A stretch of DNA of 64,000 bases from Actinomycetes bacterium (GCA_029782335.1 JAKOVA010000053.1:1-64000); one strand, 5' to 3'; shown: positions 19,024 to 54,000, numbered from the stretch's first letter. Translations and numbers: made by a program. The notes: a model not told the origin generated them from the letters alone.

Positions 19024-20376
19024 TCAGAGCATGGAGCCGAGATCGGAGCCGACGGTCGGGTAGGCGGCGGTCATCGACTTGAGTTGGCGGGTCGTGATCC
19101 CGAGTTTGATCGCGAGCCCGCACAGGTTGATGAGTTCGGCGTAGTCGGGGCCGAGCATGTGGGCGCCGACGATGGTGTCGGTGGTGGGGTCGACGAGGAT
19201 CTTGGTGGCTGCGGTCGTCTCGCCGGTCCGATAGCTGGAGTACCAGCCGCTGGTGTCGGTGAATCGGACATCGATGTCCAGCCCGCGGTCGCGGGCCTCG
19301 TGCTCGAGCAGCCCGACCCGGGCGAGCTCGGGGATGGTGAACACTGCGGTGGGCACCCCCCGGTAGTCCGGCACGGTCCGGCGACCGTTGACCATGTTGG
19401 ACACGGCGACCTTGCCTTCGAACACCGCGACCGGGGTGAGCGCCATCGCGTCGGTGTCCGCAGCATCACCGGCAGCCCACACCGCCGGGTTGGTCGTGCT
19501 CTGCAGATGCGCTTCGACGGTGACGCCGCGGTCGGTATGCGCCACGCCGGCGTGGTCGAGGCCGAGGGCGCCGAGCTGCGGGACACGTCCGGCGCCGTGC
19601 ACGACGAGGTCGGCATCGATGTTCGCTTCGCCCTCGGGGGTGTCGAGCCGGACACGTTGGCCAGAGGCGAGCTCGTCGATGCTCACGGTCGTGGATCGGG
19701 TTCGGACGTCGATGCCGACCGTGGCGCTCCTGGCGATGAGCAGGTCGACGAGGTCCGGGTCGAAGCGCTTCAACGGACGCTCGCCGCGGTCGAGGATCGT
19801 GACCGCGGAGCCGGCTCGGGCGGCGATGTGGGCGAACTCGAAGGAGATGAACCCGCCGCCGACGAACACGATGCGGGGTGGGAGCGAGTCGAGGCGCAGG
19901 AACTCGGTGCTGTCGATCATCAGCTCGGCGCCGGGGAATCCGAGGGGTCGGGGGCGGGCGCCGGTGGCGACTAGCGCGTGTCGGCACTCGTGGAGCGTGC
20001 CGGCGACGTCGATCGTCGACGGCGACGTAAACGTGGCAGCACCGTGGAGGGTATCGACACCGTTCGAGGCGAGTTCGCGTTCTGCGTTGCCGGGGGCCGG
20101 GTCGATGAAGCCGCGAGTGTGGCGCATCAGATCGGCCCAGTTGATCGACAGACCGTTCGGGTCGATGCCAATGTCACGCATCAGGTTGGCGGCGTCGATG
20201 ACCTCGGCTCCTCGGCGCAGGATCTTCTTCGGGTCACAGCCGCGAAGGGCGCATGTGCCGCCGTAGGGCAACTCGTCGACGATCGCGGTCCTCCAGCCCG
20301 CCGCGGCCGCCTTGTTCGCCGCCGAGATGCCAGCCATGCCTGCGCCGATGACGAACAGGTCATAACGAGCGGTCAT
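19024..20376 (-). CDS. FAD/NAD(P)-dependent disulfide oxidoreductase
   Basis: A 450-residue pyridine nucleotide-disulfide oxidoreductase. It shows the FAD-binding motif VIGAGMAGISAANKAAAAG, the redox pair in GGTCALRGCDPKK (CX4C), the NAD(P) motif FVGGGFISFEFAHIAARAG, and a dimerisation domain ending YAELINLCGLAIKLGI. It lacks the N-terminal HMA domain and the C-terminal Cys pair of MerA, so it is not a classical mercuric reductase; it belongs with the glutathione-reductase-like branch. Its ATG at 20376 overlaps the stop of the DF-family gene (ATGA), and the pair is divergent from merR, pointing to metal- or thiol-stress induction. Confidence 0.82.
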   Translation of the reverse strand: MTARYDLFVIGAGMAGISAANKAAAAGWRTAIVDELPYGGTCALRGCDPKKILRRGAEVIDAANLMRDIGIDPNGLSINWADLMRHTRGFIDPAPGNAERELASNGVDTLHGAATFTSPSTIDVAGTLHECRHALVATGARPRPLGFPGAELMIDSTEFLRLDSLPPRIVFVGGGFISFEFAHIAARAGSAVTILDRGERPLKRFDPDLVDLLIARSATVGIDVRTRSTTVSIDELASGQRVRLDTPEGEANIDADLVVHGAGRVPQLGALGLDHAGVAHTDRGVTVEAHLQSTTNPAVWAAGDAADTDAMALTPVAVFEGKVAVSNMVNGRRTVPDYRGVPTAVFTIPELARVGLLEHEARDRGLDIDVRFTDTSGWYSSYRTGETTAATKILVDPTTDTIVGAHMLGPDYAELINLCGLAIKLGITTRQLKSMTAAYPTVGSDLGSML

Positions 20377-20666
20377 CGGCTGAACACCTCGATGAGCGAG
20401 TCGAGCGACGGCGCGCCCTCGACCTCGTCGCCGCTGCGGTAGAGGCGACACGCCAACGACGGACCCGCTCCACCGAACGGGTCGACGCCACCGACCAGGA
20501 TCGTCGGGGATCCGCTCATCGCCGAACGCTCTGCTTCGTCGGCAGTGGCGACCTCGTGCTCGCGGACCGTCGCCGCTGCACCGGTCCGTTCGAGAGCGAT
20601 GGCGATGCGTTCACGAGCGACGGCGAGGTTGGGACAGTCCGCGACGTGGAGCAGGTCGATGCGCAT
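20373..20666 (-). CDS. DF-family thioredoxin-like small protein
   Basis: A 97-residue thioredoxin-fold protein starting MRIDLLHVADCPN at the ATG at 20666. The DCPN site corresponds to the redox position that in relatives can be selenocysteine ('DF family (seleno)protein'); here it is a normal cysteine codon. GSPTILVGGVDPF supplies the cis-Pro loop. It is typically found beside MerR regulators and flavin reductases, as here. The start coincides with the predicted transcription start of the MerR-type promoter, so the mRNA would be leaderless. Confidence 0.72.
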   Translation of the reverse strand: MRIDLLHVADCPNLAVARERIAIALERTGAAATVREHEVATADEAERSAMSGSPTILVGGVDPFGGAGPSLACRLYRSGDEVEGAPSLDSLIEVFSR

Positions 20667-20672
20667 ACGCTG

Positions 20673-20704
20673 ACCGTAGAGGTTCCAGTGCACAGGAAGG
20701 TCAA
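20673..20704 (-). promoter_or_regulatory. MerR-type promoter/operator
   Basis: Minus-strand TTGACC (20699-20704) and TACGGT (20673-20678) are separated by 20 bp. That long spacer is typical of promoters activated by MerR-family DNA untwisting. The spacer carries the dyad TTCCaGTGCACaGGAA. Transcription would begin about at 20666, the first base of the DF-family start codon. The same 42-bp gap contains the merR ribosome site on the other strand. Confidence 0.65.
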
Positions 20705-20708
20705 GCAG

Positions 20709-21107
20709 ATGTTGATCGGCGAGCTCGCCCAACGGTCAGGGGTCCCAGCCAAGACGCTGCGCTACTACGAAGACATCGGGCTGCTCGACCCACCACGCCG
20801 CACCGAGTCCGGCTACCGCGACTACGACTCCGATGTCGTCGAACGGCTCATCTTCATCACGTCGTCGAGCGCGTTGGGGCTCACCCTCGGGGAGATCCGC
20901 AGCATCATCGCCCTACGAGACGACGGACAAGTCCCCTGCGGCCACGTCCTGGCCCTGCTCGAACAACACTCGCGTGACATCGACCGCAGGATCTGCGAAC
21001 TCCGCTCGCTGAAAGTCGAGCTCGCCGCGATCGTCGAACGGGGAGCACGACTCGACCCAGCCGACTGTGACCCCGACCGCATCTGCCATCTCATCGGGCC
21101 CAGCTAA
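20709..21107 (+). CDS. MerR-family transcriptional regulator
   Basis: A 132-residue regulator, with ATG at 20709 and AGGAAGG upstream. The N-terminal winged helix reads MLIGELAQRSGVPAKTLRYYEDIGLL, typical of metal-type MerR proteins. A dimerisation helix follows, and a C-terminal segment PADCDPDRICHLIG contains two cysteines that could bind metal, as in the CueR/ZntR/MerR C-terminal loops, with an additional Cys in DGQVPCGHVLALL. It is divergent from the DF-protein/flavoprotein pair and probably activates it. The metal is unknown; divalent or soft-metal sensing fits the Cys positions. Confidence 0.85.
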   Translation: MLIGELAQRSGVPAKTLRYYEDIGLLDPPRRTESGYRDYDSDVVERLIFITSSSALGLTLGEIRSIIALRDDGQVPCGHVLALLEQHSRDIDRRICELRSLKVELAAIVERGARLDPADCDPDRICHLIGPS

Positions 21108-21239
21108 TTCGACACCGTCGAGGTCTTGATCAAGTCGTCAATGAGAGCACCCCCCGCCGGCCCAGTCGTTCCGATCGCAGCATGGAGCGGAGCGATGCGG
21201 CTTGGAGTTCGTCGGGCCCGCGATGGGCCCGCTCCTTGT

Positions 21240-21899
21240 TCAGTGTTCGCTCGGGCTCGAACGGTCGAAGGTGGCGGCACACTCCGGTGAGCAAAACAGG
21301 TGCTCGATACCGGCGGCGGTGCGGGTAGCCGCAGCGTGGGAGCGGGTGACCGCCATCTGGCAGATGGGGTCGACGGCACGGTCCGGTAGCGCAGGGCACG
21401 AGGTGATGGCGTAGAGATCGATCGGTTCGGGGAAGCTGCGAAGCGATGTTGGTCCGAGCGCAGCGACGGCCATGCCGGCGTGCTCTGCGGCGTCGGCGAC
21501 CACAGCGGTGGCGACCACTTGGTCGGGTTGCGCGAGGGCGGCGATCCGGGCAGCGACGTTGACGGTGGCACCGAACCAGTCTCCGCCGCGTTCCACGACG
21601 GGTCCGTGGTGGAGTCCGATGCGCAGGAGTGGGAAGGCGGCTTCGTGATCGGCGAGGTGGCAGATCCGCCCGGCGAGAGCGAGCGCGTCGTGCGAGCTGG
21701 TCGAGACCAGCATGACGGCGTCGCCGAGGCCCTTGACCAGCTGGTCACCGTCTCCGAGAGAGATGGTGGTGAGATCGCAGAGCCGTTCAGCGAGGTCGGC
21801 GGCAGTCTCGTCGCCGTGGGTGGCGGTGGCAACGGTGAAGCCGGCGAGGTCGATGAACACGACGGTTCGCTCGAGGGCGGTCGGGGCAGTGTCGGTCAC
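21240..21899 (-). CDS. Class III nucleotide cyclase fused to a YHS domain
   Basis: A 219-residue protein with GTG start (21899) overlapping the lspA stop (GTGA). Residues about 8-165 form a cyclase catalytic domain. The metal-binding Asp is in VFIDLAGFT, the second Asp and substrate-specifying Lys in LVKGLGDAVM, and the transition-state Asn/Arg in VNVAARIAAL. Residues about 175-215 (DPICQMAVTRS, then EHLFCSPECAATF) match a YHS domain, a small Cys-containing module linked to metal handling. All catalytic positions are present, so cAMP synthesis is plausible. A soluble cyclase-YHS protein at the end of a metal-efflux operon suggests a metal-responsive second messenger. Confidence 0.8.
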   Translation of the reverse strand: MTDTAPTALERTVVFIDLAGFTVATATHGDETAADLAERLCDLTTISLGDGDQLVKGLGDAVMLVSTSSHDALALAGRICHLADHEAAFPLLRIGLHHGPVVERGGDWFGATVNVAARIAALAQPDQVVATAVVADAAEHAGMAVAALGPTSLRSFPEPIDLYAITSCPALPDRAVDPICQMAVTRSHAAATRTAAGIEHLFCSPECAATFDRSSPSEH

Positions 21900-22378
21900 G
21901 GTTCAGCCGCTGACTCGTGGGGCGCGGCGCGCCAGCTGGTGACGGCGAGGACGATGCCTCCGCAGACGATGGCGACATCGGCGAGGTTGAAGGTCGGCCA
22001 CCAGCCTGTGTAGAGCATGTCGACGACAGTGCCGGCTTGTGACCGGTCGATGACGTTCGCCAGTGCGCCGCCGATGACGACGCCCGCTGCGATGTAGCTG
22101 GCGAACATGCCGCGCCACGCTGCCACGGCGATTCCGACGGCGACGGCGCCGGTGAGGGTGAGGACCAGCCACGTTGGGGTGCTGGTGCCCATGCCGAACG
22201 CAACACCGGGGTTGTAGGAAAGGCGGAGATCGAGCGGGCCCGGAAGGTCGATGTCTCGGTCGGCGAGCGCTGCGCTCGCCGCGATCTTGGTGGCGAGGTC
22301 GATGGCGATCACGGCAGCCGCAGTGGCCATGAGGATGGTGTGCTTGCGTCGAGACGGGCCGGAGAGGTCGGTGGTCAT
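21896..22378 (-). CDS. lspA: Signal peptidase II (lipoprotein signal peptidase)
   Basis: A 160-residue protein with four membrane segments and the LspA aspartates in ALANVIDRSQAGTVVDML and FNLADVAIV, plus the SYNPGVAFG motif. It cleaves lipoprotein signal peptides at the lipobox cysteine in the membrane. It is coupled by ATGA/GTGA overlaps to the upstream P-type ATPase and downstream cyclase genes. Extra lspA copies beside metal-exporting ATPases are a known recurring arrangement. Several lipoproteins sit in the same island (28264, 28666, 36976 and others), so it may process them. Confidence 0.9.
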   Translation of the reverse strand: MTTDLSGPSRRKHTILMATAAAVIAIDLATKIAASAALADRDIDLPGPLDLRLSYNPGVAFGMGTSTPTWLVLTLTGAVAVGIAVAAWRGMFASYIAAGVVIGGALANVIDRSQAGTVVDMLYTGWWPTFNLADVAIVCGGIVLAVTSWRAAPHESAAEP

Positions 22379-24315
22379 TTGCGGGCGAGCCGGAGCCCGT
22401 TGGCGATCACGGCGAGCTCGGACAGCTCGTGTGCGAGCACTGCGACCGGGAGGGCGAACACACCGAAGAGAGCGCCCGGGACCAGGACTGCGAGGATGAC
22501 GAGGCTGAGCGCTATGTTCTGTGCGACGACGCGATGGGTTCGGCGACCGATGCGCAGCGCTTCGGTGAGCTTGGACAGGTCGTCGGCCATGAGTGCGACG
22601 TCGGCGGTTTCGAGGGCGACGTCGCTGCCGGCGGTCCCCATCGCGATCCCGACCGAGGCTGCGGCGAGGGCGGGCGCGTCGTTGACGCCGTCGCCAACCA
22701 TGCCGACGTGCCCGCTGCGGGCGAGTTCGGTGATGAGCCGGGACTTGTCGTCGGGTTTGAGGTGGGCGTGGACCTCGTCGATGCCGACCTGGTTTGCGAC
22801 TGCGGCGCCGGTGCGGGCGTTGTCGCCGGTGAGCATGACGATCCGTTCGACCCCCTCACGGCGGAGTTCGGCGATGGCGTCGGCTGCTTGTGGACGGAGG
22901 ACATCGGCGATGCCGATCACGCCGACGATCCGGTCATCCACTGCGGCGGCGATGGCGGTTTGGCCGGAGGTCTCGAGTTGCTCGATGCGGTCGCGAAGTG
23001 CGGTGAGGGCGAGCCCCCGGTCCTCCATGAGGGCGGGCGACCCGACAAGGTACTGATGACCGTCCGCGGCGGCTTGGGCGCCGGCGCCGATGAGGGCCTC
23101 GAAGGTGTCACTGGCCGATGGGGTGGCGATGTCGAGCTCGCGAGCCCGGATCATCACGGCTTTGGCGAGGGGATGCTCGGAACGCTGCTCGACCACCGCC
23201 GCAGCCGACAGCACTGTCTGCTCGGTCTCACCGGTGGCTGGGAGGGTCTCGACGACTCGAGGCTGACCCTGGGTAAGGGTGCCGGTCTTGTCGAGCGCCA
23301 ACACGGTGAGCCGGGCGAGCTCTTCGAGGTAGATGCCGCCCTTGATCAGGATCCCCTTGCGGCTGGCGTTGCCGATGGCGGCCACGTAGCTCACCGGGAT
23401 CGAGATCACCAGCGCGCACGGTGCCGCAGCGACGATCACCGTCGCTGCTCGGGCCACCCATTCGGAGAAGTCACCAGTGAGCAACCCGCCGCCCAGTCCG
23501 ACAGCGAACCCGACGGCGAGCACGGTCGGTGAGTACCGGCGGGCAAAGCGGTCCATGAACTTCTCGCCTCGACCCTTCTGCTCCTGGGCTTCGCTGACGA
23601 GGTGCACGATCTTGGCCAGTGTGTTGTCGGCCGAGGTCGCCGTTGCCTCCACCACGAGCGCTCCGGTGGTGTTGAGTGTCCCGGCGAAAACCTTGTCGCC
23701 GGCCTGCTTGTCGACCGGCGCCGATTCGCCGGTGATCGCAGCCTCGTTGAGCGCGGAGCGGCCCTCGACGATGGCGCCGTCGGTGCCGACTCCTTCGCCG
23801 GGTCGGACGACGAACCGGTCGCCCACCGCAAGCGCATCCAGGGCGACCTCTTCTTCGACACCGTCACGGACCCGCATCACTCGTTTCGGGGCGAGGTCCA
23901 TCAGCGCCCGGATGGCGTTGCGGGTGCGGTCCTCGGTGAACTCTTCGAGCGCTTCGGAGATCGAGTACAAGAACGCCAGCGTGGCCGCCTCGCCCCACTC
24001 GCCCAGCCCAGCTGCAGCGAGGGTGCCCACCGTCATCAACAGTTCGATGCCGATCACCCGTTCGCGTACCAGCTCGTTGACCGCTTCGAGAGCGAAGAAC
24101 CGCAGCCCTGCCAGCGTCGCGACCACATACAGCCCGGTGACCGCGACGTCGGGGGCGTCGAAGCGGCCGGCAACGAACCCGACGACCAGCAGCAGCCCGG
24201 CGAGCGCCGACCAGCGCACTTCTCGGCTCTGCCACACGTGCGCTACGCCGTCACCATCGTCGTCTGCGTCGTCGCGATCACCGACGACGGACCGAACGGG
24301 AGGTGTGGCGCTCAT
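22375..24315 (-). CDS. P1B-type heavy-metal-transporting ATPase
   Basis: A 646-residue ATPase; the ATG at 24315 overlaps the regulator stop (ATGA) and is preferred to 24339. Motifs appear in order: the TGES actuator loop in AAITGESAPVDKQ, the transmembrane metal motif AAAPCALVIS, DKTGTLTQG (phosphorylated Asp), and the hinge MVGDGVNDAPALA. The last membrane segment reads HELSELAVIANGLRL. It resembles CadA/ZntA exporters but has APC where they have CPC, and the N-terminal HMA metal-binding domain is missing, replaced by an acidic stretch with DDADDDGDGVAH. Export of zinc, cadmium or lead is likely given its CmtR-like regulator; exact metal is unknown. Confidence 0.88.
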   Translation of the reverse strand: MSATPPVRSVVGDRDDADDDGDGVAHVWQSREVRWSALAGLLLVVGFVAGRFDAPDVAVTGLYVVATLAGLRFFALEAVNELVRERVIGIELLMTVGTLAAAGLGEWGEAATLAFLYSISEALEEFTEDRTRNAIRALMDLAPKRVMRVRDGVEEEVALDALAVGDRFVVRPGEGVGTDGAIVEGRSALNEAAITGESAPVDKQAGDKVFAGTLNTTGALVVEATATSADNTLAKIVHLVSEAQEQKGRGEKFMDRFARRYSPTVLAVGFAVGLGGGLLTGDFSEWVARAATVIVAAAPCALVISIPVSYVAAIGNASRKGILIKGGIYLEELARLTVLALDKTGTLTQGQPRVVETLPATGETEQTVLSAAAVVEQRSEHPLAKAVMIRARELDIATPSASDTFEALIGAGAQAAADGHQYLVGSPALMEDRGLALTALRDRIEQLETSGQTAIAAAVDDRIVGVIGIADVLRPQAADAIAELRREGVERIVMLTGDNARTGAAVANQVGIDEVHAHLKPDDKSRLITELARSGHVGMVGDGVNDAPALAAASVGIAMGTAGSDVALETADVALMADDLSKLTEALRIGRRTHRVVAQNIALSLVILAVLVPGALFGVFALPVAVLAHELSELAVIANGLRLARK

Positions 24316-24725
24316 CGTGTCGCTCGGTAGTTCGGGCACAGCGAGATCTCCACGCCCTCAGACGCCAACAGTTCGGCGCCGGAACGCAACACCGCGACGA
24401 CCTCAGGCCGGGCGATCCGGTAGAAGACCTGACGGCCCTCAGGCCGGTCAGCCACCAACCCGCACGCCTTCAAGCACTGCAGGTGTCCCGAGATGTTGCT
24501 CTGAGAACCCTGCAAGCGTTCCACCAGGTCCGTGACCCGCATCTCGCCTTCGCTCAGCTCGTCGAGAATCGCCAGCCGCACGGGATCGCCGAACCCCCGG
24601 AACAGCTGCGCAGCGAGCTGGACATCGGACGACATCAGCTCGCCCGACGCACCCCGGACCGCCGTGGCCGTCGCTCGACCGCCTTTCGCAGCTTGCACAC
24701 TCTCGGACGAACGAAGCAACGGCAT
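24312..24725 (-). CDS. ArsR-family metal sensor, CmtR-like
   Basis: A 137-residue winged-helix repressor, first gene of a four-gene operon with the ATPase, lspA and cyclase-YHS genes. The recognition helix region reads QGSQSNISGHLQCLKACGLV. The CX3C pair there matches Cys57/Cys61 of mycobacterial CmtR, which binds Cd(II)/Pb(II), and a third Cys lies in the tail at ISLCPNY, as in CmtR's Cys102. It should repress the operon and release on metal binding. A predicted promoter places transcription start at the ATG, so this would be a leaderless message. Confidence 0.83.
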   Translation of the reverse strand: MPLLRSSESVQAAKGGRATATAVRGASGELMSSDVQLAAQLFRGFGDPVRLAILDELSEGEMRVTDLVERLQGSQSNISGHLQCLKACGLVADRPEGRQVFYRIARPEVVAVLRSGAELLASEGVEISLCPNYRATR

Positions 24726-24731
24726 ACAGCG

Positions 24732-24759
24732 ATGATAACGGCGAATACCGTAGAGTCAA
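24732..24759 (-). promoter_or_regulatory. Promoter of the CmtR-like/ATPase operon
   Basis: Minus-strand TTGACT (24754-24759) and TATCAT (24732-24737), 16 bp apart, place transcription start at about 24725, the A of the start codon. The spacer holds an imperfect dyad (ACGG-N6-CCGT), a likely operator. The -10 to ATG stretch, ATCATCGCTGTATG, closely resembles the second CmtR-like gene's promoter. Confidence 0.6.
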
Positions 24760-24869
24760 TTATTCCAGCCTCTACCGGTTCTGACCGGTGCGACGGCCAT
24801 CGTCTTCTGCTAAGAGCGCTGCACCGGCTGGGGTGGCCGCATCGCAGTCGGGCCGCAGTGTTCGGTCGT

Positions 24870-25580
24870 TCAGCCGAGACCGGTCGACACGAGCGCGAAG
24901 AGGGCGAAACCGCCGAGCAGCGCCACGCTGGAGGCTCGTGTGTCCTCGCTCGCTTCGTGGGCTTCGGCGATCATGTCCTCGAACACCGCAACGGTGAACA
25001 AGCCCGCGGCGGCCACCAGCGCCGCACGTTGCGCCGATTCACTCGCTTCGCGCAGCATCAGGTAGGACAGCACCGATCCTGCGACGACGGGGAGCACCAG
25101 GGTCGCTGCCCGCAGGAGCCTTCTGCGTCGGGGGACGCCGTTGGCTTCGAAGGTGCTCGTCGTCGCCAAGCCCTCAGGAACATCGGCGAGGACCTGTCCA
25201 ACCGCCAACGCCAGACCCAGACTGGCCGTGACGGCCGAACCTGAGCCGATCAGGAGGCCGTCCGCGAAGAGGTCGGTGGCGACCGCGAGGTAGATCATCC
25301 ACATCTGTGTCCCGCCACCGACTCGACGCTCGATCGCTGCTTGCGCGAGGAGGTACACGATTCCGCCAGCGAGGAACGACGCTGCGATCTGCACACCCGA
25401 CAGCACCTGGAGCGCTTCGGGCATGATCTCGATCGCCACGACCGCGACCACGATGCCGGCGGCCGCATGCAACGCTCGGTTCCGCCACCTGTCCGATGGC
25501 GAGAACAGCTCGGCGGTGAGCGAGCCGGCGAAGTTCCCGACGAACGGAAGGAGCGACAGCAGGACGACGTTCAGAAACAC
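24870..25580 (-). CDS. ZIP-family metal transporter-like membrane protein
   Basis: A 236-residue protein with about seven hydrophobic segments. The ZIP signature region is DVPEGLATTSTFEANGVPRRRR, where DVPEG replaces the usual H-x-x-PEG; the next helix carries a second acidic site, VAVFEDMIAEAHEASED. ZIP proteins move divalent metals into the cytoplasm, though some act as exporters. The missing first histidine may change metal preference. It lies 144 bp downstream of the CmtR-like regulator's promoter on the same strand, with its own transcription. Confidence 0.72.
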   Translation of the reverse strand: MFLNVVLLSLLPFVGNFAGSLTAELFSPSDRWRNRALHAAAGIVVAVVAIEIMPEALQVLSGVQIAASFLAGGIVYLLAQAAIERRVGGGTQMWMIYLAVATDLFADGLLIGSGSAVTASLGLALAVGQVLADVPEGLATTSTFEANGVPRRRRLLRAATLVLPVVAGSVLSYLMLREASESAQRAALVAAAGLFTVAVFEDMIAEAHEASEDTRASSVALLGGFALFALVSTGLG

Positions 25581-25676
25581 AGCAAGCCTGTCTGTCGTTT
25601 CCCCGGTAAGACCGCCCGTCCGATTCCGAGAGGTTTGAGGCCATCAGGTGTAAAGGCAGGCACAGCCACAGCCGAG

Positions 25677-25913
25677 TCAGCCGGGGCGGTCGCGCATGCT
25701 GTGGCTCCACCACATCGCAAGGCCGGCCTCGCCTAGACCCACCGCGCGCGTTGCTGCCGGATGGTCCACGAGTGGCCGCATCGCCCGCTGGTACCAGTCA
25801 GGCCCGTCATACCAGCGCAGCATGTGGCGACGAGGCATCACTGCGGCCACGACACCGTCTCCGATGAGGATGAGCGCTACGACCCAGAGAACACGACGCA
25901 TCGTGGGTGCCAT
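25677..25913 (-). CDS. Small membrane protein of unknown function
   Basis: A 78-residue protein with an N-terminal membrane helix (VLWVVALILIGDGVVAAVM), a polar WYDGPDWYQRAMRPL stretch, and a second weakly hydrophobic segment (AVGLGEAGLAMWW). I do not recognise the family, though the pattern fits small actinobacterial membrane proteins. It is about 100 bp upstream of the ZIP-like gene on the same strand and could be co-transcribed with it. Codon usage matches its neighbours. Confidence 0.55.
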   Translation of the reverse strand: MAPTMRRVLWVVALILIGDGVVAAVMPRRHMLRWYDGPDWYQRAMRPLVDHPAATRAVGLGEAGLAMWWSHSMRDRPG

Positions 25914-26138: not shown

Positions 26139-26804
26139 CTACTCCGCGGGGTCGTTGCGGCGGCGATCGCCGATCGCGGCTGGTGCCACCAGACGCGGGC
26201 CCTCTCGGTTGCTCGGGCGCGAGGTACGAGACACAGGACGACACAGGATCCATAGGAGCACGACGCTGAACAGCTCCGGGATGTGAACTGCTTCACCGAC
26301 GAGTGGGGCGCGTCCCTGGAGCACGTCGACGACACCGGTGATCACCAACGCACCGACGAGCACCACGGCGACATGGAGCATCGTGCGAGCACGAGCGGGG
26401 CGTGCGACGACGACGAGCAGACCGACCGCGTAGGCGAGCGTGAACGCGCCAAGGTGCCGCGCCGCGTGTGCGACGTCGCGGTGCACGTCGGTCGCGAACA
26501 GGTCAGGCGTGGACAGCAGAACGATCTGAGCCGCGACGAGTGCGAGCAGCCACCGGGCGATGGATGGGCTGGTGCGGCGATCCTCCGCAGCGGCTGCGTC
26601 CGAAATGGATCGGCCGAGACCAGGGATCGTCGGTGCAGCGCTAATGCGGGCGCGACGCCGGAGATCGTCGACCTCTGATTCAAAGACGGTGCAGTCATCG
26701 CAGTGAGCCAGATGGGCGTCGACGAGCGACGGTTCGATCTCCTCGGGCTCGCCGTCAGCTCGTGCGGACAGCGCTGCTTGAACTGCGTCACATGTCGAGC
26801 TCAC
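26139..26804 (-). CDS. Anti-sigma factor with zf-HC2 domain and membrane segments
   Basis: A 221-residue protein; the GTG at 26804 gives VSSTCDAVQAALSARADGE, the correct zf-HC2 beginning. The zinc-binding anti-sigma motif is completed by HLAHCDDCTVFE. Four hydrophobic segments follow, two of them in LALVAAQIVLL and LHVAVVLVGALVITGV, so the sensor is membrane anchored. It is divergent from the sigma factor gene, with which it presumably pairs. The C-terminal tail is basic. The signal is unknown. Confidence 0.75.
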   Translation of the reverse strand: MSSTCDAVQAALSARADGEPEEIEPSLVDAHLAHCDDCTVFESEVDDLRRRARISAAPTIPGLGRSISDAAAAEDRRTSPSIARWLLALVAAQIVLLSTPDLFATDVHRDVAHAARHLGAFTLAYAVGLLVVVARPARARTMLHVAVVLVGALVITGVVDVLQGRAPLVGEAVHIPELFSVVLLWILCRPVSRTSRPSNREGPRLVAPAAIGDRRRNDPAE

Positions 26805-26860
26805 TGGTTGCTCCGCGTGGTGCTTTGTCACCCGAGGGGGTCGTCTGGGACCATTCACTG

Positions 26861-27388
26861 GTGCGGTCCGACTGGGTTCTCCGCGAGGTGGTGTCCCGGG
26901 CGGTCGAGGGTGATGATACGGCGATGGCGGAGTTCGTCGCCCTCACCGAGCCTGAGGTCTGGAAGCTGTGCCACGCGTTGGGCTCTGACGGTGAGGTCGA
27001 GGATCTGGTGCAGGAGACCTATCTGCGAGCGATCCGATCGATCGGCTCGTTCCGAGGCGATTCCCCTGTGATGGCATGGCTGTTGCGGATCGGCCGCAAC
27101 GTGTGCGCCGACCACGTCCGCCTTCGACAGCGAGACCGTGGTCTCGTGGAACGGGTCGGTCTCCAGCTCCGCGAGCAAGACTGGATCGAGCCGAGCTTCG
27201 CGTCGATGCTCCTCGCAGGGCTGGCCCGCCCTCAGCTCGAGGCGTTCGTGCTCACCCAGCTGTTCGACATGACCTACGAGGCGGCGGCGGAGGTGCTCGA
27301 CTGCCCGGTCGGCACCGTGCGGTCCCGCCTGTTCCGCGCGCGACAGGAGCTGGCACGCCGACATCACCGGAGCTCCGACACCGGTTGA
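26861..27388 (+). CDS. ECF sigma factor (SigC-like)
   Basis: A 175-residue sigma factor with region 2 (VEDLVQETYLRAIRSIGSFRG, WLLRIGRNVCADHVR) and region 4 (FDMTYEAAAEVLDCPVGTVR). The wording is close to mycobacterial SigC. The start is uncertain: GTG 26861 aligns with the family N-terminus, while ATG 26792 would overlap the divergent anti-sigma start. There is no convincing ribosome site, so leaderless translation is possible. It probably transcribes its own island genes when released by the zf-HC2 partner. Confidence 0.8.
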   Translation: MRSDWVLREVVSRAVEGDDTAMAEFVALTEPEVWKLCHALGSDGEVEDLVQETYLRAIRSIGSFRGDSPVMAWLLRIGRNVCADHVRLRQRDRGLVERVGLQLREQDWIEPSFASMLLAGLARPQLEAFVLTQLFDMTYEAAAEVLDCPVGTVRSRLFRARQELARRHHRSSDTG

Positions 27389-28665: not shown

Positions 28666-29409
28666 TCATGGGGCGACGACGGGGTCGCAGGCTCCCGGGC
28701 GATTGTCGAGGGAGTCCAGCTGAGCTGCGTCGACACGACGGGTCGGTCGGGGTCCGAAGCGGTCGTGGTTGGCGCCGTCTCGGTAACGGGCTGTGTAGCC
28801 GACCTGGGTGGCGTCGCGTTGCCCTTGTTGCTGTGGATCCTCTCCTGCGACGACGAGCTGTTCGAGGTGGTCATGGGCGTCGAGCGTCACGTCGAGCACG
28901 GTCGGTTCGACGCTGCGGTCGATGATGCGGAACCGGTTGTCGTCGAGCCGTTCGACGCTGTCAGCGGTCGTGAGGAGCTGGCCGAGCTGGCGGTTCGGCC
29001 GCTCCGCCTCGCCGGTCAGCGCCAGCTCCGCCACGATCGGGCCGACCAAGCGGCCCACCGATTCGAGTGCCGCTGGCCCCTTGATGGCCCACCAAGCGTC
29101 GGGACCACGGGCGAACGCGGACGGGCGCAGCACGAGCTCGTCGCCCTGTGCGACGAGCACGGGATCGGCCATCGGGTCGTCGAACACTGCAATCGATTCG
29201 TCGTCGATGACGCTGATGGCGAGCGTCCCCCCGTCGGGGAAGCAGCTGACGATGCTCGACGGGTCCGACACCGTGACGCTCACCTGGTAGCCATCCGGAG
29301 GAGATGTGCTCCGGAGCCTTCGGGCGAGCTCGGATGCGGGCGACGAACTGCACCCGACGAGGACGGCCAGGGTCAGCAGGGCCACCGCTGAGCCGGCGAT
29401 CCGGGTCAC
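28666..29409 (-). CDS. Lipoprotein, LolA/LppX-like fold possible
   Basis: A 247-residue lipoprotein starting at GTG 29409, overlapping the CDF stop (GTGA). The signal peptide ends at lipobox LVGC. The mature part has alternating beta-type stretches (YQVSVTVSDPSSIV, TLAISVIDDESIAVF, TVLDVTLDAHDHLEQLVVAG) reminiscent of the LolA/LppX half-barrel lipoproteins that carry hydrophobic molecules. The likeness is by pattern only. Its coupling to a CDF metal exporter suggests an envelope role in metal stress. Confidence 0.6.
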   Translation of the reverse strand: MTRIAGSAVALLTLAVLVGCSSSPASELARRLRSTSPPDGYQVSVTVSDPSSIVSCFPDGGTLAISVIDDESIAVFDDPMADPVLVAQGDELVLRPSAFARGPDAWWAIKGPAALESVGRLVGPIVAELALTGEAERPNRQLGQLLTTADSVERLDDNRFRIIDRSVEPTVLDVTLDAHDHLEQLVVAGEDPQQQGQRDATQVGYTARYRDGANHDRFGPRPTRRVDAAQLDSLDNRPGACDPVVAP

Positions 29410-30407
29410 GTGTGGTGCTCTGGGGTGTCACAGCCGTGGCACTCGGGTTCGAGTGTGGAGTGGTTGATGTCGAATCGCTCGACGAGCATGGCCTTGGCAT
29501 TCGACGTCACGGTCTGGGCGTCGTGCAGGTCGACGCCGTCGACCAGGTCCAGGTGTGCGGTGAGGGCGACGGTCTGGGAGTCGACCGACCAGACGTGCAC
29601 ATGGTGTGCCGAGCGAACACTGTCGATGTCGGCGAGGGCCGATGTGACCTCGTCGACGTCGAGGCCGGCGGGTGTGGACTCGAGCAGGACGCCGACCGTG
29701 TCACGCAGCAGCCTCCAGACGCCGATCAACACCAGTAGGGAGATGAGGATCGAGACCGCTGGGTCGACCCAGCCGGCGTCGAAGAAGTAGACGCCCGCCG
29801 CAGCGACGACGACACCGAAGGACCCCAGCGCATCGGCGATCAGGTGCCAGAACGCGGCACGGATGTTCAGGTTGTCGCCGCCGGCCCGGCTGAGGATCCA
29901 CGCACTGCCGCCGTTCACTGCCAGGCCGATCACACCGATGAGCGCGAGCGGGCCAGCGTCCAGCGCCACCGGCTCGGAGAAGCGGCGTATCGCCTCGACC
30001 ACGACCCATCCGGTCAACGCGATCAGGACGGTGCCGTTGACCAGGGCAGCGAGGATCTCGGCTCGCGCGAGGCCGTAGGTCCGACGCGCGGTCGCTGGAC
30101 GAGCCGCCAGCGCCTGGCCGACCAGGGCGATGACGAGAGCGACGACGTCGCTCGCGTTGTGCAACGAATCCGCCAGCAACGCCAACGAACCGATGACCAG
30201 GCCGACCACGACCTGAACCGCAAGGAGGATCGAGTTCGCGCCGACGGAGAACCACAGCGCGAACCGCTGACTCGACGCCGCTGCGGCGCGCGCGTGGCTG
30301 TGCCCGCCACCATGGGTGTGGCTGCCTTCGCTGCGGCCGGCGGTCATGGGTGCCCCCTGGTGGCCCGCGACAGGTTCGGTCGCCGCATCCCGGCGTTCAT
30401 CACTCAT
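29406..30407 (-). CDS. CDF-family cation efflux transporter (CzcD/ZitB-like)
   Basis: A 333-residue transporter read from the ATG at 30407, which overlaps the DUF3703 stop. The N-terminus carries a His-rich metal-binding tract, HTHGGGHSHAR. Membrane segments 2 and 5 carry the transport-site motifs HNASD and HLIAD. The C-terminal cytoplasmic ferredoxin-like domain contains SVRSAHHVHVWS and a Cys/His tail (PECHGCDTPEHH). Zn(II)/Cd(II)/Co(II) export by proton antiport is the family function. It is regulated with DUF3703 by the adjacent CmtR-like sensor. Confidence 0.9.
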   Translation of the reverse strand: MSDERRDAATEPVAGHQGAPMTAGRSEGSHTHGGGHSHARAAAASSQRFALWFSVGANSILLAVQVVVGLVIGSLALLADSLHNASDVVALVIALVGQALAARPATARRTYGLARAEILAALVNGTVLIALTGWVVVEAIRRFSEPVALDAGPLALIGVIGLAVNGGSAWILSRAGGDNLNIRAAFWHLIADALGSFGVVVAAAGVYFFDAGWVDPAVSILISLLVLIGVWRLLRDTVGVLLESTPAGLDVDEVTSALADIDSVRSAHHVHVWSVDSQTVALTAHLDLVDGVDLHDAQTVTSNAKAMLVERFDINHSTLEPECHGCDTPEHHT

Positions 30408-30757
30408 CGCGAGTCGCTCAGGATCCGTTGGAGATCCGACGGGATCGGCATCGGGGCGAACATCGAGACTCGCGATCGTCCGCTGTTCCCCTCGGGGAAA
30501 CGCCCGCTGAGCGAACCCGGGCCTGCGACGACCAGGCGCACGACCTGCCCGAACGTCTCGCGGACGTCGCGACCCTCGACCGCCGTGCTCAACATCACCG
30601 CGTGGACCCGCACATGCGCGAGTGCCCAGGGTTGACTCAGGATGTGCGCCCGCTCCAGGTGGTGCCACGCCGACTCGATGTCGCCGTCGCGTCGCGCCGA
30701 GCGTGCAGCGTCGAGCGCGAGGCGCAGCTCTGATCGGGCTGGTTCTGCCACCGTCAT
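30404..30757 (-). CDS. DUF3703 protein
   Basis: A 117-residue protein matching DUF3703 in length and in DIESAWHHLERAHILSQPWALAHVRVHAVML. That segment is helical, His-rich and highly conserved in the family. DUF3703 genes commonly sit beside metal exporters and regulators, but no function has been shown to my knowledge. It overlaps the CmtR-like gene upstream and the CDF gene downstream by 4 bp each, so all three are translationally coupled. No signal peptide is present. Confidence 0.82.
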   Translation of the reverse strand: MTVAEPARSELRLALDAARSARRDGDIESAWHHLERAHILSQPWALAHVRVHAVMLSTAVEGRDVRETFGQVVRLVVAGPGSLSGRFPEGNSGRSRVSMFAPMPIPSDLQRILSDSR

Positions 30758-31134
30758 CGCTCGACCTCGTGATCACATTCGGCTGCGGGAGCGAGCGCGA
30801 GCCCGCACAGGTCCGAAAGGGCGTGGGCCAGCTTCGGGTCGCTCAGGCGGTATCGCTGCCGGCGCCCCTCTGCCTCGGCCACCACGAGTCCACATCCCCG
30901 CAGGCATGCCAGGTGGTTGGACACGTTGGGTCTCGAGAGACCGAGGTCTCGGGCGAGGTCCGAGGGGTAGGCCGCTCCTTCCAGCAGGGCCATGAGCATG
31001 CGCCGTCGTGTGTCGTCGGCCAACGCGGTACCGACCCTCGCCAAGGCGGAGAGATCGACCGTCGCAGGACGCGATGGAACCAAACGGGCCCGTTCTCCGA
31101 CTGTGGATTGATCGGGCGCGATTTGCGACGACAT
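30754..31134 (-). CDS. ArsR-family metal sensor, CmtR-like (second copy)
   Basis: A 126-residue repressor. The region LSRPNVSNHLACLRGCGLVV carries the CX3C pair and is nearly the CmtR wording. The tail contains CGLALAPAAECDHE, giving a third cysteine and a histidine. The track start (GTG 31149) would put the start codon inside the operator; ATG 31134 is better because the predicted promoter begins transcription there. It controls the DUF3703-CDF-lipoprotein operon and probably the divergent DUF3105 operon through one shared palindrome. Confidence 0.85.
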   Translation of the reverse strand: MSSQIAPDQSTVGERARLVPSRPATVDLSALARVGTALADDTRRRMLMALLEGAAYPSDLARDLGLSRPNVSNHLACLRGCGLVVAEAEGRRQRYRLSDPKLAHALSDLCGLALAPAAECDHEVER

Positions 31135-32577: not shown

Positions 32578-32993
32578 TGAACCACCAGCGTCGCGATCGG
32601 AGTCACACCCGGCTCCGGCGATCCGTCGTCGGCGCGCTCGTCATCGCCGGCGGCATCGCCCTGATCGGCTGCAGCGACGACCCGGCGGACCAGCTGAGCG
32701 GTCCCGCCGCAGTCGGGGCGGATCTGGCGGAGTCCTACAACTGTGCGTCGTGTCACAGCGTCGACGGCGCCCGGAGCACGGGACCGACGTGGGACGGCAT
32801 CTGGGGGGAGCAGGTCGAGCTGGCCGACGGCACCCGCGTCGAGGTCGACGACGAGTACGTTCGACGCTCGATCACCGACCCGGCCGCCCAGGTCGTCGAC
32901 GGGTTCAGCCCCATCATGCCGGCGTTCGACCTGCCCGACGACGAGCTCGCAGCGCTCAGCGCCTACATCCGCTCTTTGGGTGAGGACCGATGA
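32577..32993 (+). CDS. Monohaem cytochrome c lipoprotein
   Basis: A 138-residue lipoprotein (lipobox LIGC) with one haem site CASCH and a downstream Met ligand in FSPIMPAFDLPDDELAALSAYI. The domain resembles the cytochrome c domain fused to oxidase subunit II. It starts 1 bp into the upstream stop (TGATG) and overlaps copCD by 4 bp. It could carry electrons for oxidation of Cu(I) or for an oxidase outside the island. Haem attachment needs a Ccm system, not present in this window; the membrane thioredoxin at 27684 could assist. Confidence 0.83.
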   Translation: MNHQRRDRSHTRLRRSVVGALVIAGGIALIGCSDDPADQLSGPAAVGADLAESYNCASCHSVDGARSTGPTWDGIWGEQVELADGTRVEVDDEYVRRSITDPAAQVVDGFSPIMPAFDLPDDELAALSAYIRSLGEDR

Positions 32994-34573
32994 GTCGTAG
33001 AGGGTTCGCGGTTCGTCTGGCGGTCGCGTCTGCGGTCGGGGTCGTCACGTTGTTGGGTGTCGCGTCGCCCGCCGGCGCCCACGCCTCGTTGGTGTCGACG
33101 AGCCCGAGCACCGACAGCGTCGTCGACACCGTCCCGGATCAGGCCAGGATGACCTTCACCGAGGCGGTCACCGCCCTGCCAGGCTCGGTCGAGGTGTACG
33201 GACCCGACGGCGACCGGGTCGACAGCGGGACGCCGAGCATCTCGTCGGACTCGACGACTGTGGACGTCGGGATCGACCCAGGTGGGCAGGGGACCTACAC
33301 GGTGTCGTGGCGGGTCACCTCCGACGACGGACACACGATCTCGGGGTCGTGGGTGTTCCACGTCGGGCAACAAAGCGGCGCTGTCACCCTCGACGACGAT
33401 GCCGGGGACCGTGCCGCCGACGTGGTCGCATGGTTCGCGCGTGTGCTCTTCAGCGCCGGCATCATCGGGGTCGTCGGCGTCGGCGCTGTCGCCGGAACAG
33501 GTCTCGCGGGCTGGCGCTCCATCACCGTGCCGAGAGCCGAGGCGCGGCGCGTGTGGATCGCCGCAGGACTTGCCGCGGTCACAGGTGCCGCGCTGGGGCT
33601 CATCGCCGAGGTCGCCGACGCCACCGGCTCGAACCTCCTCGCCGCGCTCGGGGACGTCGTCGACGTCGTCGCGGGATCGCGGTCGGGAGCGCTCGATGCG
33701 CTCAAGCTCGCAGCCTGCGTGGTGATCCTGTTGCTGGTGAGCGTCGTGCGTCACCGGCTGGTCGTCCCGGTCGCGCTGTCCTGGGCACTCGCGGCGATCA
33801 CGATCTCCGCGCTCTCGGGCCACGCTGCGGTCACCGCAGCGCCCCTCCTGTCCGTGCCGCTCGACGTGGCGCACTTCGCCGCCGCTGGCGTCTGGCTGGG
33901 CGGGCTCGCCGTCCTCGTGAGCACCGCCGGGCGGTCCGTCCCCATCGAACGGTGGTCCACCGTCGCAGTAGTTGCCGTCGGCGTCATCGCCGTGACCGGG
34001 ATCGGCTCCTCGCTGTTCCAGCTCGGAGCGCCCCGCGGACTCTGGGAGACCGACTACGGCCGACTCCTGATCGCGAAAGTCACCGTTGTAGCGCTCATGG
34101 TCGCGCTCGGGTGGCTGAACCGCCGCCACCTCGCCGAACTCACCGCCCGGGCCGGCAGCGCACTGCGGCGGGTGCGCGGCGAGACCGTCGCCGGCGTCGC
34201 GGTCCTCGCCATCACGGGAGTGCTCGTCTCGACCGTTCCCGCCACCGACGCCCTGGCACGGCCGTTCTCGGGCTCGACGAGCATCGGGTCCGTCGACGCC
34301 ACGTTCACCGTCGATCCCGCACGGGTCGGCACCAACTCGATCCACATCATCTTCACCGACTCGAACGGCGGAGCCGCCGAGGTCGACGCAGCCGAGCTCA
34401 CCGTGTCCGGACCGGGCGTCGAACCAGCGCGCGTCCGGCTCACACCCATCACCACGAGCCACTACACGACCGCCGATGCATCGTTCGGACGGCCAGGCAC
34501 CTGGACGCTGGACCTCGTCGCCGTCACCGACGGTGAACCTGCGAACGGCAGCATCTCCGTCCCGGTCCGATGA
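32990..34573 (+). CDS. CopC-CopD fusion copper protein
   Basis: A 527-residue protein. After a signal peptide (cleavage after SPAGA) the mature protein begins HASLVSTSPS, so the N-terminal His is a CopC Cu(II) ligand. DDGHTISGSWVFHV supplies further CopC ligands. Residues about 150-420 are a CopD-like membrane domain of eight segments with HAAVTAAP, DVAHFAAAGVWLGG and LIAKVTVVALMVALGWLNRRHL. The C-terminal about 90 residues form a FixH/YtkA-like beta domain. Periplasmic copper binding and copper uptake or transfer across the membrane are the family roles. Its ATG overlaps the cytochrome stop. Confidence 0.88.
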   Translation: MSRRGFAVRLAVASAVGVVTLLGVASPAGAHASLVSTSPSTDSVVDTVPDQARMTFTEAVTALPGSVEVYGPDGDRVDSGTPSISSDSTTVDVGIDPGGQGTYTVSWRVTSDDGHTISGSWVFHVGQQSGAVTLDDDAGDRAADVVAWFARVLFSAGIIGVVGVGAVAGTGLAGWRSITVPRAEARRVWIAAGLAAVTGAALGLIAEVADATGSNLLAALGDVVDVVAGSRSGALDALKLAACVVILLLVSVVRHRLVVPVALSWALAAITISALSGHAAVTAAPLLSVPLDVAHFAAAGVWLGGLAVLVSTAGRSVPIERWSTVAVVAVGVIAVTGIGSSLFQLGAPRGLWETDYGRLLIAKVTVVALMVALGWLNRRHLAELTARAGSALRRVRGETVAGVAVLAITGVLVSTVPATDALARPFSGSTSIGSVDATFTVDPARVGTNSIHIIFTDSNGGAAEVDAAELTVSGPGVEPARVRLTPITTSHYTTADASFGRPGTWTLDLVAVTDGEPANGSISVPVR

Positions 34574-53855: not shown

Positions 53856-54000
53856 GTTGCCGTCGCCGTCACGCGAGTGGTGGGATAGCCCCGACAACTC
53901 ACCACACCGTCGGAGGGAAGCCGGTGCGATTCCGGCGCTGTCCCGCAACCGTGAGCACGGCTCCCGCCCGGAGACGTGTCAGCCGGAGCGCTCCGTGGCG
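53856..54000 (+). ncRNA. Cobalamin riboswitch
   Basis: The conserved core GGGAAGCCGGTGCGATTCCG-GCGCTGTCCCGCAACCGTGAG lies at 53914-53954, with the downstream B12-box-like element GAGACGTGTCAGCCGGA at 53971-53987. The 5' boundary is approximate. It precedes the ECF transporter operon by about 95 bp. The distal aptamer helices appear short. It should shut off expression when cobalamin is abundant. Confidence 0.88.

Follow-up and report, generated by a model that had tools for sequence, protein, structure and literature searches.

Cyclase-YHS enzymes (AC-YHS), in which a class III adenylyl cyclase domain is followed by a C-terminal YHS domain, go with metal efflux: in many loci they are apparently cotranslated with the pumps, and they are paired with pumps of several metal types. 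The case at the center of this study is the last gene of a metal-efflux operon in a 64,000-nt stretch of DNA from an Actinomycetes bacterium, referred to here as the window. Its product adds one more enzyme to a family already known, and the novelty lies in the operon linkage. This linkage gives a gene context for a copper-activated cyclase whose physiological role was left open by Linder 2015 (PLoS One, PMC4626032), and it makes testable both the idea that cAMP reports metal overload and the idea that the metal preference of the YHS domain tracks the neighboring pump.

Organization of the operon

The operon lies on the minus strand and reads in the order arsR, P1B ATPase, lspA, and cyclase-YHS. 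The first gene (24312-24725) encodes an ArsR/SmtB metalloregulator (Pfam HTH_5, 2.5e-14; NF033788, over cut-off), the second (22375-24315) a P1B heavy-metal ATPase (Pfam E1-E2_ATPase, 3.6e-50; TIGR01525, 593 bits; TIGR01512, 511 bits), and the third (21896-22378) signal peptidase II (Pfam Peptidase_A8, 1.1e-28; TIGR00077, over cut-off), followed by the gene of the 219-aa AC-YHS protein (21240-21899), which has a GTG start. Each gene is joined to the next by a stop/start overlap of 4 bp, located at 24312-24315 (arsR/ATPase), 22375-22378 (ATPase/lspA), and 21896-21899 (lspA/cyclase), all on the minus strand; here, the ATPase start is taken to be the ATG at 24315, a longer ORF with a GTG at 24339 being set aside. 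The original prediction had read the four genes as a single translational unit on account of these three overlaps, and every ORF and overlap it named was recovered.

Directly upstream of the arsR start lies a candidate sigma-70-like promoter, TTGACT-16-TATCAT (24732-24759, minus strand), which is a consensus match only. It agrees with the consensus at 10 of 12 positions and is the sole promoter-like site in 20400-25700, where 0.3 would be expected; the same consensus scan returned none inside the operon. A search of 24680-24880 for an ArsR operator in the form of an inverted repeat yielded two long-spaced repeats only, neither of them convincing. The promoter candidate sits in a 144-bp gap between arsR and an upstream gene for a ZIP-family transporter (24870-25580, minus strand), and L004, L100, and L101 likewise have ZIP genes next to that of the cyclase. 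At the other end, outside the operon, the convergent neighbor on the plus strand (20709-21107) encodes a MerR-family regulator that is CadR/PbrR-like, with a score under the cut-off of that model.

Metal operons of the pbrABC and cadA-lspA types have a signal peptidase II gene directly after the metal ATPase gene, and the window operon resembles them in that lspA stands directly 3′ of its ATPase gene. To our knowledge, no operon of these types includes a nucleotide cyclase.

The window protein belongs to a known cyclase family

The cyclase homology domain (21405-21866, minus strand; aa 12-165; Pfam Guanylate_cyc, 1.4e-10) contains all six catalytic residues, namely, D17 and D60 for metal binding, K56 and D107 for adenine selection, and N114 and R118 for the transition state. 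It is connected by a linker of 10 residues (Pfam boundaries 12-165 and 176-213) to the YHS domain (21261-21374, minus strand; aa 176-213), whose putative metal ligands D177, C180, C203, and C207 were assigned on the model of Linder 2015. The six catalytic and four ligand residues are invariant in 46 homologues drawn from several actinobacterial lineages and Rhizobiaceae, in keeping with the claims of the original prediction that the class III active site is complete and that the YHS cysteines probably contact metal. Extending the comparison to 92 loci, we found the ten key residues kept almost everywhere, and inactivated homologues, which would have spoken against a working cyclase, amount to isolated exceptions: a P at the first metal position (L184), an N replacing the base-specifying D (L186), an S replacing one YHS cysteine (L075), and two cut or frame-shifted sequences (L105 and L108). 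Conservation of the catalytic residues rules out a degenerate cyclase, and conservation of both sets indicates that selection acts jointly on the catalytic center and the YHS metal site.

The Pfam match of the YHS domain (E = 0.0037, 17.7 bits) falls under the gathering score of 30.3 bits. The domain is nevertheless real, because its four ligand residues are invariant in the 46 homologues and the AlphaFold model is confident across it. This model, for which the plasmid-collection rows were left out of the alignment, has a mean pLDDT of 93.8. Both by sequence and by predicted fold (Foldseek), the closest solved structure is that of Rv1264 (1y10/1y11), a pH-sensing mycobacterial adenylyl cyclase of class IIIc; whereas Rv1264 has an N-terminal regulatory domain, the window protein has the C-terminal YHS domain instead.

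The same cyclase-YHS architecture was described in Linder 2015 (PMC4626032), with 26 sequences counted in mycobacteria, Gordonia, Rhizobium, and others. The enzymes of that family are placed in class IIIc, with a short dimerization arm, and have 8-11 residues between their two domains. In that study, purified MpAC of Mycobacterium phlei was inactive with Mg2+ and was activated by 1-10 µM Cu2+ in a manner that required the YHS domain; Zn, Fe, Cr, Co, and Ni did not activate it, and Cd, Pb, Ag, and Hg were outside the panel (PMC4626032). Like MpAC, the window protein combines a single class III domain, one C-terminal YHS domain, a linker of ∼10 residues, the six catalytic residues, and one D plus three C. 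Unlike in MpAC, no WW precedes the FC motif. MpAC was characterized apart from its gene context, whereas the gene of the window protein is part of an efflux operon of the Cd type. By analogy, the window enzyme probably makes cAMP upon metal binding. It is ∼40% identical to a homologue on an M. gilvum plasmid (L026), a protein of 233 aa whose D178, C181, W201, W202, C204, and C208 reproduce the length and numbering of MpAC; from length and residue numbering only, we infer that L026 and MpAC are the same.

The original prediction had considered a cyclic-nucleotide signal built into a metal-export operon to be undescribed. This does not apply to the fusion, given Linder 2015 (PMC4626032), and it stands for the operon link. 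Linder 2015 makes no mention of operon, neighbors, or efflux (PMC4626032), no other paper joining YHS domains and cyclases turned up in the open literature searched, and a connection of cyclase-YHS proteins to metal-export operons was not found there either. The operon linkage of AC-YHS to metal efflux is thus likely unreported.

AC-YHS genes recurrently adjoin metal ATPases

Homologues came from searches of the order and phylum of the window, of Mycobacterium, and of plasmids, and removal of near-duplicates left 64 AC-YHS loci; a scan of genome contigs with the single protein gave two relatives only. Of these loci, 35/64 have a P1B ATPase gene within 5 kb, compared with 2/20 YHS-free class III cyclases that served as controls (Fisher p = 5e-4, to be taken as indicative since AC-YHS loci share descent). 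The difference is also seen among loci with both flanks complete (30/48 AC-YHS versus 2/17 controls), and ArsR genes occur within 5 kb of 21/64 AC-YHS genes and 1/20 controls. No P1B ATPase was seen within 5 kb in the other 29 of the 64 loci, many of these contigs being short, and seven loci from other actinobacteria had no ATPase in this range.

The neighboring ATPases fall into at least four types. Those with APC/HELSE are encoded on the same strand as the cyclase (the window, L096, L024, and L101); those with SPC and HExxE, in Mycobacteriales (L026 among them), are mostly divergent and accompanied by ArsR; those with SPC and HEGST (for example, L066) are on the same strand, directly upstream of the cyclase; and the CPC (copper) type (for example, L185) was found in two Mycobacterium and two Rhizobiaceae. 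On a quick tree of the cyclases, the ATPase type must have changed at least eight times. Coupling of the gene starts shows a similar variety of partners, in that the cyclase start forms an exact 4-bp overlap with the stop of the ATPase gene in L066, L174, L177, L179-L181, L183, and L024, with that of lspA in the window and L096, with that of arsR in L004 and L100, and with that of a methyltransferase gene in L158.

The closest counterpart of the window operon is L096, from another genus of the window's family, which has ATPase, lspA, and cyclase in this order with both 4-bp overlaps. Of the four-gene order proposed originally, these three genes were thus found again, and an arsR-like gene is located upstream on the opposite strand. 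An assembly error, raised in the original prediction as a possible undoing of the fusion, or a chance fusion is excluded by the presence of the fusion in 64 nonredundant loci, which include complete plasmids and chromosomes, and by the order and overlaps kept in L096.

As a separate observation, a gene for an isoprenylcysteine-carboxylmethyltransferase-like membrane protein lies within 2.5 kb of AC-YHS in 15/64 loci versus 0/20 controls. In Mycobacteriales (L026 6376-7014, L154, L156, L158, L166, and others), it often stands directly before or after the AC-YHS gene, and a SAM methyltransferase sometimes accompanies it.

Metal specificity of the sensor and the pump

Alignment to 2jsc places two cysteines of the window ArsR protein exactly at C57 and C61 of the Cd/Pb sensor CmtR, and a further cysteine is located near the C-terminus (LCPNY). 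Its score against the NCBIfam CmtR equivalog is 57 bits at a cut-off of 150, so the protein is CmtR-like and not filed as CmtR. The ATPase has an APC motif (VAAAPCALVI) in the metal-transport helix and HELSELAVIANGLR at the C-terminus, and Pfam detected no N-terminal HMA domain. In M. tuberculosis, the CmtR-regulated CtpG, which also has an APC motif, confers cadmium but not copper tolerance (PMC13043812). The CmtR-PacL2-CtpG operon (PMC13043812) shares with the window an ArsR-family sensor with C57/C61 and a P1B ATPase with APC in one operon; in the window, by contrast, no PacL gene was seen between arsR and the ATPase gene, and lspA and the cyclase gene follow instead.

Because C57/C61 in ArsR and the APC motif are as in the CtpG system, our best guess is that the window pump exports Cd, Pb, or Zn. 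Similarly, the physiological signal of the window enzyme may be Cd, Pb, or Zn rather than Cu. The M. gilvum homologue L026 adjoins ArsR and an ATPase, and its close relatives in a like setting have an SPC/HELAE pump, not CPC; therefore, the metals outside the panel of Linder 2015 matter most.

A model for metal-triggered cAMP signaling

With moderate confidence, we propose that the operon exports a thiophilic divalent metal, Cd, Pb, or Zn, as an efflux unit of the CmtR/CtpG kind to which a metal-triggered second-messenger enzyme has been added, its cAMP being read by a CRP-type regulator. Cytosolic metal would release the ArsR sensor from its operator, as expected from the family. One promoter would then drive the operon, and the overlaps suggest that pump, signal peptidase, and cyclase would be made together by coupled translation. 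Metal bound by the D/C/C/C ligands in the YHS domain would turn the cyclase on with Mg-ATP, as shown with Cu2+ for the M. phlei relative, and here the substrate of the pump would be a likelier activator than copper. Finally, cAMP would signal metal stress to the wider cell, most likely via a CRP-type regulator; this is the weakest step of the model.

Several observations count against this proposal. MpAC, the only tested relative, answers Cu2+ and not Zn2+; the metal specificity of the window pump is read from motifs only; and a search within 5 kb revealed no ATPase in 29/64 loci, many on short contigs, and in the seven from other actinobacteria. Moreover, the window shows no excess of CRP-family sites, for which the original prediction had suggested a search of the island (12 CRP-like sites versus 16.8 expected), and none lies in the operon's own promoter.

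As for possible receivers, the genome of the window encodes a CRP whose nearest counterpart is the CRP of M. tuberculosis. In this genome, which is 75% complete, no cyclase other than AC-YHS passes the Pfam cut-off. A second, divergent cyclase-like protein (L002, contig C128) reaches 20.7 bits at a cut-off of 21.9. Contig C244 encodes a stand-alone 139-aa cNMP-binding protein (L114 1435-1854) with no recognized DNA-binding domain, and this protein is a possible second cAMP receiver. The best hint at a dedicated regulator reading the cAMP of AC-YHS comes from two Rhizobium plasmids, where a 188-aa cyclic-nucleotide-binding regulator adjoins AC-YHS (L120 7936-8502 and L122 7705-8271) and copper or heavy-metal-associated genes lie alongside.

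It is tempting to speculate, and we do so tentatively, that AC-YHS could be a general metal-alarm module, recruited repeatedly into Cd-type, P1B-4-like, and Cu-type operons and tuned in each to the metal of the pump. In actinobacteria and rhizobia, metal overload would then be communicated through cAMP as a shared second messenger, and some lineages would have CRP-type receivers devoted to it.

Less likely alternatives: copper sensing, shared islands, and metal buffering

A rather unlikely alternative is that the cyclase senses copper as in M. phlei, regardless of the adjacent pump, such that Cd efflux and Cu signaling would be separate functions coexpressed in a multi-metal island. The metal response of MpAC, which Cu2+ activates and Zn, Fe, Cr, Co, and Ni do not, is consistent with this idea, as are the presence of CopC/CopD in the window, the CPC-type copper ATPases or CueR adjoining some relatives, and the fact that L026, with its MpAC length and numbering, adjoins ArsR and an SPC-type ATPase that is not necessarily a copper pump. 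However, the ArsR and the ATPase of the operon bear cadmium-type, not copper-type, signatures, the MpAC panel stopped short of Cd, Pb, Ag, and Hg, and a copper sensor would leave the translational coupling to a Cd-type pump without evident use.

That AC-YHS and efflux genes simply share metal-resistance islands and plasmids, with no functional coupling, appears improbable to us. Homologues frequently reside on plasmids (40 plasmid records), their distribution is patchy (39/249 Mycobacterium genomes), and nearly half of the loci have no close ATPase, as such passive linkage would predict. Yet distant loci repeatedly show exact 4-bp overlaps with ATPase, lspA, or arsR, and four or more ATPase types with at least eight type changes on the cyclase tree look like repeated recruitment. 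It is highly improbable that the YHS domain buffers metal or passes it to the pump, with cyclase activity being incidental or serving local pump tuning: YHS/TRASH domains do occur on metal ATPases too (Linder 2015, PMC4626032), but the full active site is under selection in nearly every homologue and MpAC activity depends on YHS metal.

Other features of the island

The window contains a multi-metal resistance island. In addition to the genes above, this island holds a divergent gene pair for a sigma factor of the ECF type and a putative anti-sigma protein with zf-HC2 (26139-27388), a cation-diffusion-facilitator transporter (29406-30776), and a CopC-CopD fusion (32990-34573). At 19024-20669, a MerA/glutathione-reductase-like flavoprotein gene overlaps a small ORF resembling DF-family (seleno)proteins (55.8 bits, cut-off 70). 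Farther away, a cobalamin riboswitch (39.1 bits) is located on the plus strand at 53916-53975.
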